IMG/VR virus record: IMGVR_UViG_3300042565_001545 | Coordinates: 1-37,093 of that record | Strand: one strand, 5' to 3' | Length of the DNA: 37,093 nt | DNA from: a virus | Shown here: in pieces, positions 14,509 through 37,093 of the stretch | Layout: each line of letters opens with the position of its first letter | Numbering within the stretch: the stretch's first letter is position 1 | Position numbers and translations under genes: made by a program | Notes under the pieces: generated by a model | Database searches by the model: none | What the model was told of the DNA's origin: nothing | Seen by the model: only the letters and a program-made list of their open reading frames with translations

Positions 14509-15127
14509 CAATCACCTCGACTCTCGGTCCCGCTTCGATAATGTTGAGGGCTTCTCCTGCAGCCTCTACGACAGCGTTGGGATCGAACTTGGTGATCTCA
14601 GCAAGCAACTGCTTGCGGAACTCCGCATCGCCTTCTATACGCAGCATGGCGGCTTGGCTGGCAATCGCCATCAGGTCAACCTCAGAGATGCCGTCAAGCG
14701 GATCTCCGACTTCTCCTACCAGTTTGTCTCGTTCAGAGGTTAGCCGGATGATCGCTTCGTATAAGCCTTTGACGGTCTTGAAGTCGGTGTCATGAAACTC
14801 CTTCAACTCGGGCGGCAGGTGATCCCCCCGGAGTTTCTTGAGGTCCTGTGCCATCATCTTGCCAAGCTCAACGGCCCCACCTAACTCATCCATCGCCGCT
14901 TCGGCAATGTCAAGCGTGAGTGGCCGACCAGCCTTCTTGACTTCGGCCAGTGCCTCTTTGAATCCTCGCTGCGGGACTTTGCTGGCCATAACAGCCATCG
15001 TCCCCGCTACCTTTGCATCATCGTCGCATGACATACACAGACCTCTGGGTAGTATGTGTTCTGGGAGAACCGGCAGGTTACATGCTGGGCACACAACCTT
15101 GCCGGGGAAGTTGACTAGACCTGTCAC
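14501..15127 (-). CDS. Possible terminase small subunit with N-terminal zinc ribbon (208 aa)
   Basis: The N-terminus has two CxxC pairs (CPAC near residue 13 and CMSC near 31), a likely zinc ribbon. The rest is helical and acidic. The gene is directly upstream of the large terminase and overlaps it by 8 bases, the usual place of a small terminase, which binds the packaging site. No helix-turn-helix is obvious, so DNA binding could use the zinc motif instead. The GTG start at 15127 overlaps the stop of the ejection-like gene. The small-terminase call rests on location. Confidence 0.5.
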   Translation of the reverse strand: MTGLVNFPGKVVCPACNLPVLPEHILPRGLCMSCDDDAKVAGTMAVMASKVPQRGFKEALAEVKKAGRPLTLDIAEAAMDELGGAVELGKMMAQDLKKLRGDHLPPELKEFHDTDFKTVKGLYEAIIRLTSERDKLVGEVGDPLDGISEVDLMAIASQAAMLRIEGDAEFRKQLLAEITKFDPNAVVEAAGEALNIIEAGPRVEVIDV

Positions 15128-19419: not shown

Positions 19420-19659
19420 ATGAGTCTCAACCCAGACGAGATGAACCAGTACTTGTCGGCCAAAGAGGTCGTCGCCCTCCTGTCCGGCATAGGCATTGAA
19501 GTAACCGATGATACAGTCCGGTTGTGGATTACCCGCGGCCTGAAAAACAGAAACGCCCCGGCAAGCCATCACTGGCTCCGGGGCGTTCGCATTGGGGGTA
19601 GATTGTACGTCGTACGGGAAGAACTGATTAAGTGGATCCCTCTGATACAACAGGGCTAA
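19420..19659 (+). CDS. Small winged-helix protein, DUF1580-like (79 aa)
   Basis: The protein reads YLSAKEVVALL (about residues 11-21), then DDTVRLWITRGL and a basic loop, then VRIGGRLYVVREELIKWI at the C-terminus. This is the helix-turn-helix plus wing layout of MerR/excisionase-type and DUF1580 proteins. DUF1580 is strongly associated with planctomycetes. Such proteins act as recombination directionality factors or repressors. Its stop overlaps the stop of the convergent recombinase gene, which suits an excisionase-like partner, and two dyads lie in its upstream region. Either role remains unproved. Confidence 0.75.
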   Translation: MSLNPDEMNQYLSAKEVVALLSGIGIEVTDDTVRLWITRGLKNRNAPASHHWLRGVRIGGRLYVVREELIKWIPLIQQG

Positions 19660-21209
19660 CGTAGTACCTCCATCAATCTAACCGCTTCTTCCGGATTGCG
19701 GCACGTTGCCGCCATCGCTGTCAAACCTTTCTTGTCGTGCAGTCGTCCCCGGATTGGTTTGGCAACCCGGATCCACTCCTCCATTCGGGGGAAGACGTGT
19801 GCAATCGTATCGACGTTCAACGGGTACATCACCAACGTGCCCTTACCGTACTTCTTCAGCACGTCGAGCAGTCGGTCGCGTTTCTCGCTGAACTCCACTG
19901 CCTGCATCTTCTTCACCTTGGCTTGGTACATCGCCAGAGTGTCGCCCGTCTCGCCGGTCAAGCTTGGGAACCCTTTACGCTTCAGCCACTGGTTAGAGAT
20001 GACACGACATGCGGTACGTCGATCTCGATACTGCTTGGCTGTGAGTACCAGGTGAATGTGCATTGAGAATCGTTCAGCCTTGGAGAAGAACTGGTTGAAG
20101 CAGAAGTGCTTCTGCCCCGCTCGGTCTTTGCACTCTCCCAACATCTTTGGTGCTCTCGCAGCCTGTGCCGCAGGGTTGACTCCCAACGCAACCATCAGCC
20201 CCTGCTTGGTCGATCGGCTGATCTCCTGAGACTCTACTTCAGCCAGCAGACTCAACAGACTTACCACGGTCTTACCAAACGGGGTGTCGGTCTTGATGCC
20301 TCCTTCGACTGTCATGAGGTATGACCCTTTGGCGTGGATCGCCTCGGTCATGCGTGCCATGTCGAGCATCGATCTGAAGATGCGGTCGGGCCTCCACGCT
20401 ACAACGATGTCGCCTGCCTTGAGGTCGTCCAACATCTTTGCCCCGGCCTTACGCTTTGACAGGCTGGTCTTGAACGCACTGGCACCCTCATCCTCGTACC
20501 AGACGATCTCGGATTCCTTCATGTCTTGCGGGAGTTGCTTGAGGATACACAGACGTTGCTGCTCGACCGTCTGATCCTTGGTCGAACATCGGATGTAGGC
20601 TCTCACCTTACCAGTGAATCTGAACTTGCTTCTCTCGCGGTCAGCCGCGATAGCTTGCATCACTGAGCCGATGTCTTTACTCGTCGGGTTCTCGATAGGT
20701 GCATGAACTACTGGTGCAGCCTTTGGCTCTTTCGGCTTATCCTTGCTGAGCATCCGTGCCTCACGCACACGGGCGGAAGTGAGGTCTGACTTCAGTTCCG
20801 CCACCACTGCGAAGATGCGAAGCATGGCCCTACCGTTAGCTGTGTTGGTCGACAGCATCGGATAGTCTGTGAAGACAACAGAGATTCCGTTGTCGACCCA
20901 GTACTCCATGGTCGTAACCATGTCTGACATCTTGCGGAACAGGCGATGGGTTGCTGTCGCGATGACAGTATCGCCAGGCTTCAGTACAGCCATCAAGGCC
21001 TGCCCGCCGGGGCGTTGTGACAACTTCTTCGTGTAGGCAGACTTGCCCCCGTCAATGAACACCCCGGTCAGCCCACAGTTGGTCGCCAAGCCGGGGAGCA
21101 ATAAGTTGTTCTTGGCGTACGTCAGACCTGACGTGCATTGGTTGTCGATGGAGAACCCGGAGTGGAACTGCTCGAAGGTTGAAACTCGGGCGTAGATGTA
21201 TGCTGACAC
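19656..21209 (-). CDS. Serine recombinase with two complete catalytic domains
   Basis: Serine recombinases cut and rejoin DNA using a serine nucleophile. This protein has two such domains in one chain. Domain 1 (about 1-150): YARVST with Ser10, Arg67, the HRLFR motif at 89-92, and the NGRAMLRIFAVVAE helix near 126. Domain 2 (about 200-340): YIRCSTKDQ with Ser209, Arg253, DRIFR at 276-279, and FGKTVVSLLSLLAE near 311. Both copies keep the nucleophile and the core arginines. The remaining 180 residues are basic and have no zinc-ribbon signature I can confirm. The GTG at 21209 has AGGAG upstream and overlaps the methyltransferase end by 88 bases; a TTG further upstream (21242) is less likely. 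It could be integrase, invertase or resolvase. Confidence 0.9.
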   Translation of the reverse strand: MSAYIYARVSTFEQFHSGFSIDNQCTSGLTYAKNNLLLPGLATNCGLTGVFIDGGKSAYTKKLSQRPGGQALMAVLKPGDTVIATATHRLFRKMSDMVTTMEYWVDNGISVVFTDYPMLSTNTANGRAMLRIFAVVAELKSDLTSARVREARMLSKDKPKEPKAAPVVHAPIENPTSKDIGSVMQAIAADRERSKFRFTGKVRAYIRCSTKDQTVEQQRLCILKQLPQDMKESEIVWYEDEGASAFKTSLSKRKAGAKMLDDLKAGDIVVAWRPDRIFRSMLDMARMTEAIHAKGSYLMTVEGGIKTDTPFGKTVVSLLSLLAEVESQEISRSTKQGLMVALGVNPAAQAARAPKMLGECKDRAGQKHFCFNQFFSKAERFSMHIHLVLTAKQYRDRRTACRVISNQWLKRKGFPSLTGETGDTLAMYQAKVKKMQAVEFSEKRDRLLDVLKKYGKGTLVMYPLNVDTIAHVFPRMEEWIRVAKPIRGRLHDKKGLTAMAATCRNPEEAVRLMEVLR

Positions 21210-22054
21210 TTGTGCTTCTCCTGAATGCGTTTGCAGATCCAACGTATGACTGGTACAGCCATACTGTTTCCTATCGCCTTGTATCTTGGCCCATCTTTGG
21301 CAGGTTTGCTACGGTGGTTTACCAAAGTCCAGTTATCGGGAAAACCTTGGAGCCGTTCACACTCGATGGGTGTAAGCCATCGAGGTGAGCCGTCGTACAC
21401 TACTGCGTGGCCTTCTTCTGCACTGTAGTTGTCGCGAGCGTTTCCAGTACGAGTCGTAACTGTTCCGACAATTTCCCCGCTCTCGATCTGTTTTTTCTCT
21501 CCCTTCGTAGTATCCCCTCGCAGGCAGTTGGGCTCAAAAAGAACTTCTGCGGCACTGGCCCAGTCTCCAAGACATCCAACAATGAAGACTCTACGGCGTC
21601 GTTGGGGTACTCCAAAGTACTGAGCGTCAAGAACTCGGTAAGCGACCCCATACCCGAGTTCGACCATCGCCCCGAGGATGGAACCAAAGTCCCGTCCTCC
21701 TGCCGATGACAAGACACCTGGGACGTTTTCCCACATGAACCACTTGGGTCTAAACTTTTGCAGAATTCGGCAGTAGACAAGGGCGAGGTTGCCTCGTTCG
21801 TCTTGCAGTCCTCCACGCAAACCCGCGATTGAAAAAGACTGGCAAGGTGTACCTCCAGCCAGGATGTCAAATTCAGGCACGTTCCACTCATCGAAGTTTT
21901 CCATGTTTCCAAAGTTAGGAACGTGTGAGAACCGTTCAGCCAGTACTGAGCAAGGTAGTGGCTCAATCTCGCTGAACCCTACTGCCTCCCAACCAAGGTT
22001 GGCTGTAGCGACAGAGACTGCCTCTATGCCTGAGCATACGCTGAGGAACTTCAT
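21122..22054 (-). CDS. C5 cytosine DNA methyltransferase
   Basis: Transfers methyl groups from S-adenosylmethionine to cytosine C5. Visible motifs in order: I (FLSVCSGIEAV, residues 3-13), IV (GGTPCQSFS with catalytic Cys71), VI (WENVPG, near 109), VIII (QRRRRVF, 151-157), the short recognition region with VTTRTGNARDN, IX (ECERLQGFPDNW) and X (YKAIGNSMAVPV). The 310-residue length is normal for a single-domain enzyme. No restriction endonuclease is adjacent, so it probably protects phage DNA or marks it. The ATG at 22054 has GAGGGT upstream. About 29 residues at the C-terminus after the last conserved motif overlap the recombinase start. Confidence 0.95.
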   Translation of the reverse strand: MKFLSVCSGIEAVSVATANLGWEAVGFSEIEPLPCSVLAERFSHVPNFGNMENFDEWNVPEFDILAGGTPCQSFSIAGLRGGLQDERGNLALVYCRILQKFRPKWFMWENVPGVLSSAGGRDFGSILGAMVELGYGVAYRVLDAQYFGVPQRRRRVFIVGCLGDWASAAEVLFEPNCLRGDTTKGEKKQIESGEIVGTVTTRTGNARDNYSAEEGHAVVYDGSPRWLTPIECERLQGFPDNWTLVNHRSKPAKDGPRYKAIGNSMAVPVIRWICKRIQEKHKCQHTSTPEFQPSSSSTPGSPSTTNARQV

Positions 22055-22056
22055 CG

Positions 22057-22272
22057 TCAATACCCTCGTATGATCTTTATCAGTTCGTCTCTGGTGAGCA
22101 GGTTCTTGTCGGCCAAAGCATCAACCAGCCTCGCAAGTAAGAGACGGGTGAGCTTGACTTCCTCGGATACTCTCTCAAGTTCTCCTTCGATCAATCCCCA
22201 CTGATCGCCGGTGTACCTTTCAACGAGATCGGTTACTTCCTCCCGGTCGTCATCAATCCGTAAATCAGCCAT
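22057..22272 (-). CDS. Small acidic helical protein (71 aa)
   Basis: The product starts MADLRIDDDREEVTDLVERY and is nearly all helical, with a C-terminal half like LTRLLLARLVDALADKN. The ATG at 22272 has GGAGG five bases upstream. It lies directly before the methyltransferase gene, with no gap. No family is recognised. Confidence 0.6.
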   Translation of the reverse strand: MADLRIDDDREEVTDLVERYTGDQWGLIEGELERVSEEVKLTRLLLARLVDALADKNLLTRDELIKIIRGY

Positions 22273-31519: not shown

Positions 31520-32095
31520 ATGACAACCATTTTCTTAGACCTTGATGGCGTACTGGCCGACTTCGTGTCGGGTGCCATCGCAGCGGCTGAACTGCCGGTC
31601 ACAGCCGAACAGGTAGAGCACTGGAACTTCTTCGAGGAGTACATGGACGATGACGAGTTCACGAAGCGGATCAACGACACGATGTACTTCTGGGACGACC
31701 TGGCGGTCTATCCCTGGGCTCACGAGCTTGTTGGCTACCTGAAGACCAAGGGCGACATCGTGTACTGCACATCGCCGGGCAACCACGATGAGGCAGCGAC
31801 AGGTAAGTTGAACTGGCTCCGCAGGCATGGCTTCCTGAGCAAGCACAGCAAGAACTACGTGCTGACGCACTACAAGTGGTTGCTTGCCGGGCGGGACAGG
31901 ATTCTGGTGGATGACAGTGACCAGCAGTGCCGGTCGTTTGAATTGAGCGGCGGGGCGTCGGTGATCTTCCCGCAGAAGTGGAACCGTATGTTTGACTGGG
32001 CGAGCGACCCGACCCCGTTTGCGTGCGTGACCATGCAGATGGGTGACATTGAGCGGGAGTGTTGGAAACCGTATTGTAAAGTTGGAGGTGTGTGA
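31520..32095 (+). CDS. 5'(3')-deoxyribonucleotidase-like HAD hydrolase (191 aa)
   Basis: The motif FLDLDGVLADF (residues 5-15) carries the catalytic DxDG of the HAD superfamily, with the two acids at 7 and 9. The sequence VYCTSPGN near 84 supplies the second motif and DRILVDDSDQQ near 130 the metal acids. The pattern matches dNMP 5'(3')-nucleotidases, which remove phosphate from nucleotides. The ATG at 31520 follows GGAGG. With the MazG and DUF5664 proteins it forms a nucleotide-pool set. Confidence 0.8.
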   Translation: MTTIFLDLDGVLADFVSGAIAAAELPVTAEQVEHWNFFEEYMDDDEFTKRINDTMYFWDDLAVYPWAHELVGYLKTKGDIVYCTSPGNHDEAATGKLNWLRRHGFLSKHSKNYVLTHYKWLLAGRDRILVDDSDQQCRSFELSGGASVIFPQKWNRMFDWASDPTPFACVTMQMGDIERECWKPYCKVGGV

Positions 32096-34832: not shown

Positions 34833-35240
34833 ATGTTGTTTCTTGAACGTAAGTCTGGCCAGATCGTCATGATCGGTCACGATGTGAGGATGGTGGTCAA
34901 GCAGATCATCGTCAGCCCCCAGCCGATCGTGCGGCTGGGCTTTGAGGCCCCGAAGCATATTCAGATTGACCGGGAGGAGGTGTTCTTCAGCAAGGGCGGG
35001 AAAGACTGGCAAGGGCCTCCTGCTGGTGTGTTTGCTGATGGATGGTTGTGCGAGGATAAAGTGGGGATGTACTTCAGCAACTTCCTGCCGCAGTGGGAGG
35101 GTCATCACGATTGCTGGACGGCTCCGGGTGACTGTGAAGTAGAGGGTATCATTGCGTGGCAGTTCCCACAGGACCTGCCGTTTAACAAGAGGATTGTCAA
35201 GGTTGGGCCAGAGGCCGAGAAAGGTGTACCATGTGCTTGA
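34833..35240 (+). CDS. CsrA-domain protein with a C-terminal extension (135 aa)
   Basis: The N-terminal 54 residues match the carbon-storage regulator CsrA: MLFLERKSGQIVMIG at the start, APKHIQIDREEVF at 39-51 with the key RNA-binding Arg47 kept. CsrA binds GGA motifs near ribosome sites and changes translation or stability. The following 80 residues (DWQGPPAGVFADGWLCEDKV ...) are unrelated to CsrA and unrecognised. The ATG at 34833 is well placed after TAAGGAGG. A phage-borne CsrA domain could redirect host translation or regulate phage genes. The match is judged by eye. Confidence 0.75.
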   Translation: MLFLERKSGQIVMIGHDVRMVVKQIIVSPQPIVRLGFEAPKHIQIDREEVFFSKGGKDWQGPPAGVFADGWLCEDKVGMYFSNFLPQWEGHHDCWTAPGDCEVEGIIAWQFPQDLPFNKRIVKVGPEAEKGVPCA

Positions 35241-35578
35241 AGTCAACCCTACTTGAACGCTGTAAAGGCAAGACCCTCTCAGGGTACGTCGAGTCCTGCA
35301 GCAGCCAATACCTGCTGCTTGTCTGGTCAGACGGCTGCGTGACCGAGTTGAACTCAGAAGGTGACGAGGATGACTCGATCATCAACGAGGCCAGCAGTTA
35401 CAGCCCGTTGAACTTTGTCGGGTACAACCTCGATAAGCTCCTTGAGGCTGGAGTTGATCCAGACTTCGTACAAGGGCTCAGGCAAGCTGCTGAAGTCAAA
35501 CAGGCTCAACGACTGGCCGAGTCAAAAGAGACTCGCCGTAAAGAGTATGAGAATCTGAAGAAGGAATTCGAAGGATGA
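35231..35578 (+). CDS. Phage hypothetical protein (115 aa)
   Basis: Overlaps the end of the CsrA-domain gene by ten bases. The N-terminal half has a beta pattern (KTLSGYVESCSSQYLLLVWSD), and the C-terminus is a charged helix (RQAAEVKQAQRLAESKETRR). Not recognised. Its stop overlaps the next start by four bases. Confidence 0.6.
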   Translation: MCLKSTLLERCKGKTLSGYVESCSSQYLLLVWSDGCVTELNSEGDEDDSIINEASSYSPLNFVGYNLDKLLEAGVDPDFVQGLRQAAEVKQAQRLAESKETRRKEYENLKKEFEG

Positions 35579-35937
35579 TCAAGGTCAGGTTCAACCTTGC
35601 TCGTGGAGAGAACTACCAGAAGTGGCAGATTCGTCAGGGCAAGTCAGTACTGTACCTTGAGCCCGACTCTGTGAACCTCTGGATGATGAATTGTCGATTG
35701 AGGAACCGGCGAGGAACTGCAGACAAGATCTTTGCCGGTGCGGACAAGACCGTCTGTGCCTGGGTCGAGTGTGAAGCCCTCGCGATCGCTGATACCATCC
35801 GAGCCGGACGGCAGTTGCAGTACAACCCAAGGAAGTGTCCACACTGGACCTTCTCCGGCGATGACCTGAACCTCGACAACAACACCTTCCCTCTGATCGT
35901 CAGTCGAGGCAAGACCCTGTTCGAAGGGAAAGATTGA
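35575..35937 (+). CDS. Phage hypothetical protein (120 aa)
   Basis: Starts MIKVRFNLARGENYQKWQIR and has a mixed alpha/beta pattern with SVLYLEPDSVNLWMMNCRLRN and a central CAWVECEAL. Overlaps neighbours by four and one bases. No family is named. Confidence 0.6.
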   Translation: MIKVRFNLARGENYQKWQIRQGKSVLYLEPDSVNLWMMNCRLRNRRGTADKIFAGADKTVCAWVECEALAIADTIRAGRQLQYNPRKCPHWTFSGDDLNLDNNTFPLIVSRGKTLFEGKD

Positions 35938-36080
35938 TGGCAGCACCCAAGACCCGCAACAGCCCTTGGTTCAAGCACCCGACCGGCGTTGGCTGGAAGT
36001 GCTTGGGCTGTGGACGATGTAACTCCTCCAAGGTGAAAACCTGCTCGAGGTGTAAATTCCTCAGACCCCGCTTCAGATAA
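35937..36080 (+). CDS. 47-residue RanBP2-type zinc finger protein
   Basis: The 47-residue product contains W20-x-C22-x2-C25-x3-N29-x6-C36-x2-C39, exactly the RanBP2 zinc-finger pattern (W-x-C-x2-C-x3-N-x6-C-x2-C). These fingers bind single-stranded RNA or proteins. The ATG at 35937 overlaps the preceding stop by one base. It is the last gene before a terminator. Its small size and location suggest a host-interaction role. The C-terminus is basic (RPRFR). Confidence 0.65.
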   Translation: MAAPKTRNSPWFKHPTGVGWKCLGCGRCNSSKVKTCSRCKFLRPRFR

Positions 36081-36092
36081 CCCTCAGACAGC

Positions 36093-36121
36093 AAGCCCCG
36101 GCCAAACCGGGGCTTGTTTCG
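36093..36121 (+). terminator. Rho-independent terminator at the end of the plus-strand block
   Basis: AAGCCCCGG (36093-36101) pairs perfectly with CCGGGGCTT (36107-36115) over a five-base loop, followed by GTTTCGTTT. It ends the last gene of the plus-strand block. Confidence 0.85.
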
Positions 36122-36191
36122 TTTATAGCCCCTCAATCTCCTCAGAGGGCCGCACAGGCCCTCGTGAGACGGTGGTTGATGGAAATACCCA

Positions 36192-36223
36192 GAAGTCCCC
36201 CTGAAGTCCCCCTGAAGTCCCCT
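36192..36223. repeat. Tandem 11-bp repeat
   Basis: GAAGTCCCCCT occurs at 36192-36202 and 36203-36213 and a shorter GAAGTCCCCT at 36214-36223. Located just after the last terminator in non-coding DNA. Confidence 0.7.
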
Positions 36224-36334
36224 GAGCGGCTCCGGCTGTGACAAACGTGGCTCCACCCTGCTGTGAATGGAGTCAATCAAAGTCCCACTATACCTAAGCA
36301 AATTCAGGTGAGCCTGAGGCAGTGGCCAGATCCT

Positions 36335-36462
36335 GCCAAGTACCCCATGGGCACCGGAGGGAACCAGCCAGCACCTCCAGTCTGACCGGCATACGGAATT
36401 GGTATGGCTGGGATATGCCAAGTACCACATAGGCATTGGATGGAACCGGCCAAGTACCACAT
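36335..36462. repeat. Dispersed 14-bp repeat, three copies
   Basis: GCCAAGTACCCCAT at 36335-36348, then GCCAAGTACCACAT at 36417-36430 and 36449-36462. The intervals are 82 and 32 bases. The surrounding sequence has no convincing gene. Confidence 0.65.
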
Positions 36463-36670
36463 GGTCCCATTTTGAAAAACGTGGAAAACCTGGCTGGGGA
36501 CCCAAAGAGAAAAGAAACGCCGTGCCGGACCATGTATCCCCCCTTTTTCAGGCGTTTCTAACTTCCCTGGCTGGATGTCTGTACAGTATGACCGGCCTGG
36601 AATTGGCTGAAATCAGCCATTACGCAAGATCTGCGGAATTGTTCCAGCGGTGACGGTTGAACAGCGATAT

Positions 36671-36708
36671 ACGAAATTTATTTCGTGTATTGTATTTCGT
36701 GAATTGTA
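36671..36708. repeat. Dyad plus 14-bp tandem repeat, AT-rich
   Basis: ACGAAA-TTTA-TTTCGT (36671-36686) is a perfect dyad. It overlaps a tandem repeat TTTCGTGTATTGTA (36681-36694) and TTTCGTGAATTGTA (36695-36708). It precedes the 10-bp array by about 40 bases. Confidence 0.7.
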
Positions 36709-36750
36709 TTGCATGTTTCGCCTCCACAATTGCCGTAGTCCGGGCCCACT

Positions 36751-37050
36751 GCTGAGCCATGCTGAGCCATGGCCTCCACTGCTGAGCCATGGCCTCCACT
36801 GCTGAGCCATGCTGAGCCATGCTGAGCCATGCTGAGCCATGCTGAGCCATGCTGAGCCATGCTGAGCCCTGCTGAGCCATGCTGAGCCATGCTGAGCCCT
36901 GCTGAGCCATGCTGAGCCATGCTGAGCCATGCTGAGCCATGCTGAGCCATGCTGAGCCCTGCTGAGCCCTGCTGAGCCCTGCTGAGCCATGCTGAGCCCT
37001 GCTGAGCCCTGCTGAGCCCTGCTGAGCCCTGTTGAGCCCTGCTGAGCCCC
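36751..37050. repeat. Tandem 10-bp array, 28 units
   Basis: From 36751 the sequence runs in exact 10-base steps to 37050. Twenty-eight blocks are GCTGAGCCAT (17 copies) or GCTGAGCCCT or near variants (11). Two blocks are GGCCTCCACT (36771, 36791). CAT forms dominate the left half and CCT forms the right. Long minus-strand open frames across it arise from the repeat itself. The whole region 36081-37093 has no convincing gene. The period equals about one DNA turn. A role in packaging, origin, recombination or binding of a factor is possible. Confidence 0.9.
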
Positions 37051-37093
37051 CGAAACATGCCTACATTTTGAGCAGTTTTGCCTAGTGTTTTCG

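Follow-up and report, generated by a model that had tools for sequence, protein, structure and literature searches.

Gene content and features of the locus

The window analyzed here comprises an entire IMG/VR record (37,093 bases), a linear fragment whose right end carries an array of ten-base repeats. The plus-strand operon on the left of the array ends in a small zinc-ribbon-like gene and a strong intrinsic terminator. From this terminator to the contig end, about 1 kb contains no recognizable gene, and the array lies in apparently non-coding DNA of at least 1 kb. The region is organized as follows:

35575–35937, plus strand: gene with a weak Pfam match to mycobacteriophage L5 gp82 (PF25735), used as the locus anchor in relatives
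35937–36080, plus strand: last plus-strand gene, encoding a 47-aa zinc-ribbon-like protein (homologue 81% identical in relative G019)
36090–36118, plus strand: intrinsic terminator with a 12-bp stem, 10 bases past the last plus-strand gene
36188–36222: three 11-bp repeats, CCC[T/A]GAAGTCC (TRF)
36334–36464: 37-bp direct repeat (84%) and three CAAGTACC[A/C]CAT motifs
36675–36710: AT-rich stretch with 2.6 copies of a 14-bp repeat, AATTGTATTTCGTG (TRF)
36711–36720, plus strand: left arm of an inverted repeat, GCATGTTTCG, occurring once in the window
36719–36750: left flank with CGCCTCCACA and CGGGCCCACT, partial look-alikes of GGCCTCCACT (direct reading)
36751–37050: array of 30 decamers, 28 of the type GCTGAGCC[A/C]T and two GGCCTCCACT at units 3 and 5 (direct reading and TRF)
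37051–37060, minus strand: right arm of the inverted repeat, CGAAACATGC on the plus strand

The contig ends 43 bases beyond the array. The inverted repeat that brackets the array is perfect over 10 bp, and one as long occurs in about 0.1% of base-shuffled flanks. At least three further local duplications (11-bp in three copies, 37-bp in two and 14-bp in 2.6) lie in the flank at 36121–36750, so that the whole gap is prone to duplication. Its last part, 36719–36750, is a possible source of the minor decamer GGCCTCCACT. On the plus strand, the frames of the array meet a TGA every 30 bases, and an Rfam scan for known RNAs gave no match at the gathering score. The window contains three G-quadruplex motifs, two of which lie on the minus strand of the 1-kb tail (36188–36222 and 37017–37051) and are both made by tandem repeats; the one at the array's right end comes from a duplicated GGG tract with 7-nt loops.

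Two other contigs match the window at about 100% over 24–27 kb, and one of them reaches 17 kb further left. Taken together, the sequences indicate a roughly 67-kb uncultivated phage whose gene map would be circular, since relatives of 67–68 kb have differing break points and each runs across the breaks of the others. About 7–8 kb of the phage genome next to the array is covered by no contig. The phage encodes a terminase, a portal protein, a primase-helicase, a serine recombinase, a C5-cytosine DNA methylase and a CsrA-like protein; DNA polymerase A and an SNF2 helicase are additional genes in relatives. The serine recombinase ORF (19656–21242, minus strand) contains two tandem resolvase-type catalytic domains with the serine motifs YARVST and YIRCST, and its homologues in relatives are near full-length at 50–67% identity. 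The methylase gene (21122–22060, minus strand) overlaps the start of this ORF, and the CsrA-like domain forms the N-terminus of a 135-aa protein (34833–35240, plus strand). A deoxyribonucleotidase-like gene (31520–32095, plus strand) shares 89% DNA identity with relative G012, compared with about 64–78% in the other matched stretches, which suggests a recent exchange. A search for the nearest cultivated phage through the terminase found none, the exonuclease matched one distant Rhodobacteraceae phage among cultivated phages, and no similar DNA was found in phage or plasmid records.

Order and variation of the repeat units

Direct reading gives 30 head-to-tail units of ten bases that fill 300 bases with the 10-bp register unbroken and zero indels. 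TRF reports the array at 36750–37048 with period 10, 29.9 copies and a score of 433, against 63 for the runner-up array in the window. The original prediction of a ten-base array in perfect register over 300 bases is confirmed by both approaches, and 28 of the 30 units are of the main GCTGAGCC type. The two blocks that had been described as replaced by another decamer, units 3 and 5, are both GGCCTCCACT. The main type comprises 17 copies of the CAT version, GCTGAGCCAT, and 11 CCT-type decamers with C at unit position 9. Two of these 11 carry one extra change: position 2 is a T in unit 29 (GTTGAGCCCT), and position 10 is a C in unit 30 (GCTGAGCCCC, ending in CCC).

With A for CAT, C for the CCT type and B for the minor unit, the order of the units is AABABAAAAAACAACAAAAACCCACCCCCC. 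CAT versions lie toward the left and CCT versions toward the right (rank test, p = 1.8e-4), and the array switches between A and C seven times, compared with 13.4 times expected on shuffling (p about 0.01). The gradient first proposed for these variants thus holds as a significant polarity, but the transition is mixed rather than smooth. Besides the A/C variant and the two minor units, the array shows only two single changes in 280 bases.

The decamer holds a 7-bp near-dyad, GCTGAGC (GCT-G-AGC), through which the copies are able to pair with one another. Plus-strand RNA of the array folds better than shuffled sequences (z = -4.1), whereas the DNA fold is no better than that of shuffles (z = +0.7). 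Outside the array, the window contains a single other GCTGAGCC and no set of dispersed sites. A role as a DNA methylation target was considered, as the unit contains GCTNAGC (CTNAG) and the phage encodes a C5-cytosine methylase, and was rejected because GCTNAGC counts elsewhere are as expected.

The locus in related phages and other genomes

Three relatives (G010, G019 and G012) span the locus, and all three lack the array. In G010, the homologue of the gene at 35575–35937 overlaps a convergent SNF2-helicase ORF by 4 bp. In G019 and G012, small genes directly follow the homologue of this gene or its neighbor. Synteny would therefore place the array where the plus-strand operon meets a convergent SNF2-helicase operon, which is the expected right-hand neighbor past the contig end. 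A search for relatives with the gene at 35575–35937 as query found none.

The unit itself was sought in related phages and other genomes, as had been suggested, and no other viral contig has three consecutive units. The two-unit pattern is absent from 21 terminase-bearing kindred records, which are mostly fragments and few of which span the locus; the three-unit pattern is absent from the rest of the viral contig collection, and 22-mers from both flanks of the array match no other viral contig. Among 84,980 species genomes, three units in a row occur in one, an unrelated Streptomyces with a 6-copy GCTGAGCCCT array, which is taken as an independent chance expansion. TRF applied to 2.09 Mb of fetched DNA, mostly from related phages, found no comparable decamer array, and the short-period arrays in this DNA have periods that are almost all multiples of 3. 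One of the two near-identical contigs (G002, L036) carries three 54-bp repeats (99%) at 14901–15063 within a large minus-strand ORF.

Origin of the array and competing explanations

The array is probably a young, lineage-specific, non-coding minisatellite whose growth in unconstrained DNA would be due to slippage or unequal exchange. Its low divergence, clustered variants, whole-unit register, nearby duplications and absence in relatives together lead to this reading. The units are near-identical, run head to tail and fall within the size range of minisatellites and VNTRs (about 6–100 bp), and they share clustered variants of the kind that whole-unit duplication leaves; low divergence is as expected of a young or homogenized array. 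The array would lie in an expanded gap of at least 1 kb that opened at the point where, in relatives, two convergent operons adjoin with at most a short spacer. Replication slippage or unequal exchange between units would have multiplied a short seed, which may have come from the flank, and growth in steps of whole decamers would have kept the register. One A-to-C change at unit position 9 may then have arisen and spread to neighboring units by the same slippage or exchange, and such local spread would produce the CAT-left, CCT-right pattern. Array length probably varies between phage individuals, and no selected function would be involved. As the array is known from one contig only, variation in copy number was not observed.

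The original set of proposed functions is partly supported, with a copy-number variable region as the best-supported option. Relatives that have homologous terminase and recombinase genes without the array speak against a packaging or recombination site that the phage group conserves. A protein-titration array is possible but unsupported, as the window has no dispersed sites beyond one other GCTGAGCC and a cognate protein was not identified. The argument from the length of a helical turn carries little weight, since slippage by whole units preserves the register of any array that grows in this way. Conversely, some features fit a minisatellite less well: the inverted repeat and the adjacent AT-rich repeat are more organized than a bare minisatellite needs, a strict 10-bp register over 300 bases is equally expected from an array bound by protein, and no second copy of the locus was found among the viral contigs searched, so that length variation is inferred.

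The main functional rival is a protein-binding array of centromere or origin type, in which a DNA-binding protein of the phage would occupy the decamers at a spacing of roughly one site per helical turn. Such an array would act in the manner of pSK41 parC, or of iterons beside an AT-rich region where the DNA unwinds. Although unlikely, it accords with the unbroken 10-bp unit, the near-dyad within the decamer, the flanking inverted repeat, the AT-rich stretch with 14-bp repeats immediately to the left and the 10-bp direct repeats of which pSK41 parC is likewise built (PMC4911067). However, the array is missing from relatives that share the replication genes of this phage, and no gene for a ParA-type ATPase, ParB_N or tubulin/TubZ-type protein, as ParABS or TubZRC systems would have, was found in nine records (the window, the two near-identical contigs and six relatives; controls positive), a search that leaves uncovered the about 7–8 kb beside the array where a cognate gene could lie. 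A ParM N-domain search gave no match, with a control that was equally silent, and neither parM nor parR is among the annotated window genes left of the array, the right side being beyond the contig. A newly acquired partition or replication site, with thirty helically phased decamers bracketed by the inverted repeat and bound by a protein from the uncovered 7–8 kb or from the host, is distinctly improbable. It is also quite unlikely that the last ~1 kb is host chromosome beside an integrated phage, or a chimeric join, and the array bacterial. The trinucleotide make-up of 36121–36740 ranks at the 98.7th percentile among segments of the phage itself, this stretch is common to no relative, the flank 22-mers on both sides are in no other viral contig, the contig stops 43 bases after the array and a serine recombinase is encoded. 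Yet the divergent intergenic region of the phage (25.3–25.8 kb) is at least as deviant in composition, the non-coding stretch starts where G010 has its operon junction, and the last phage gene has its terminator 10 bases further on, as expected of a natural operon end. In addition, the contigs of the group fit a circular map with no attachment junction, and the search of species genomes returned only the unrelated Streptomyces array.

Coding by the minus strand is very improbable, with no coding signal in favor of translation and no recognized family. A gene entering from past the contig end would read through the array as a 10-residue repeat, MAQHGSAWLS, and the only point in favor is that the array interrupts none of the three minus-strand frames, two of which are still open at the contig end. 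This openness follows from the unit sequence alone, the variants are not codon-phased and alter the encoded residues whichever frame is read, the read-through tails could not be recognized, and the last 43 bases lack the C-terminus of the expected neighbor (LLDVLRDYAKQKGKI in G019). There is likewise very little reason to regard the array or its length as a product of the assembler, even though the array is on one contig only and short-read assemblies often misjudge tandem repeats. Every 70-mer in 36701–37093 is unique and no exact repeat inside the array exceeds 69 nt; a large k (77–127) with ordinary reads could thus in principle resolve the array, and a simple collapse would lose the ordered variants.

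The array therefore resembles a stutter of variable length more than a conserved functional element. As a minisatellite, it offers a clean example of a long non-coding array at a locus that relatives keep compact, and it could be used as a strain marker. Evidence that a protein uses the decamers as sites would be needed to give it greater importance.

Comparison with known systems

CRISPR arrays also consist of repeats in a row in a prokaryotic element, but the present array has no unique spacers between its repeats, as noted originally, and its unit is also too short. Iterons are usually longer (about 17–22 bp), fewer and next to an initiator gene. The array resembles iteron-type origins in having direct repeats beside an AT-rich stretch; however, long units, few copies and an adjacent initiator are not seen, and the site is not conserved with the replication genes of the group, as relatives lack it. 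In plasmid pSK41, the ParMRC centromere parC consists of 10-bp direct repeats bound by ParR (PMC4911067). The present array shares the tandem 10-bp direct repeats in non-coding DNA, but parC lies directly upstream of parM and parR, neither of which is seen among the annotated genes left of the array, and a ParR-like binder was not identified.

In the genome of corynephage CL31, a 42-bp minisatellite in clg55 has four, six or eight copies in different plaques (PMC8002715). As in the present array, its units are near-identical, head to tail and marked by shared point variants. The CL31 repeat lies in frame within a tail gene and its copy-number variation has been shown, whereas the present array has a 10-bp unit, is non-coding and would vary in length by inference. 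The same paper (PMC8002715) cites a survey in which 85% of public phage genomes had tandem repeats. The sequence of the array is new, but the kind of element is not; most probably it is a non-coding minisatellite that is long but otherwise ordinary.
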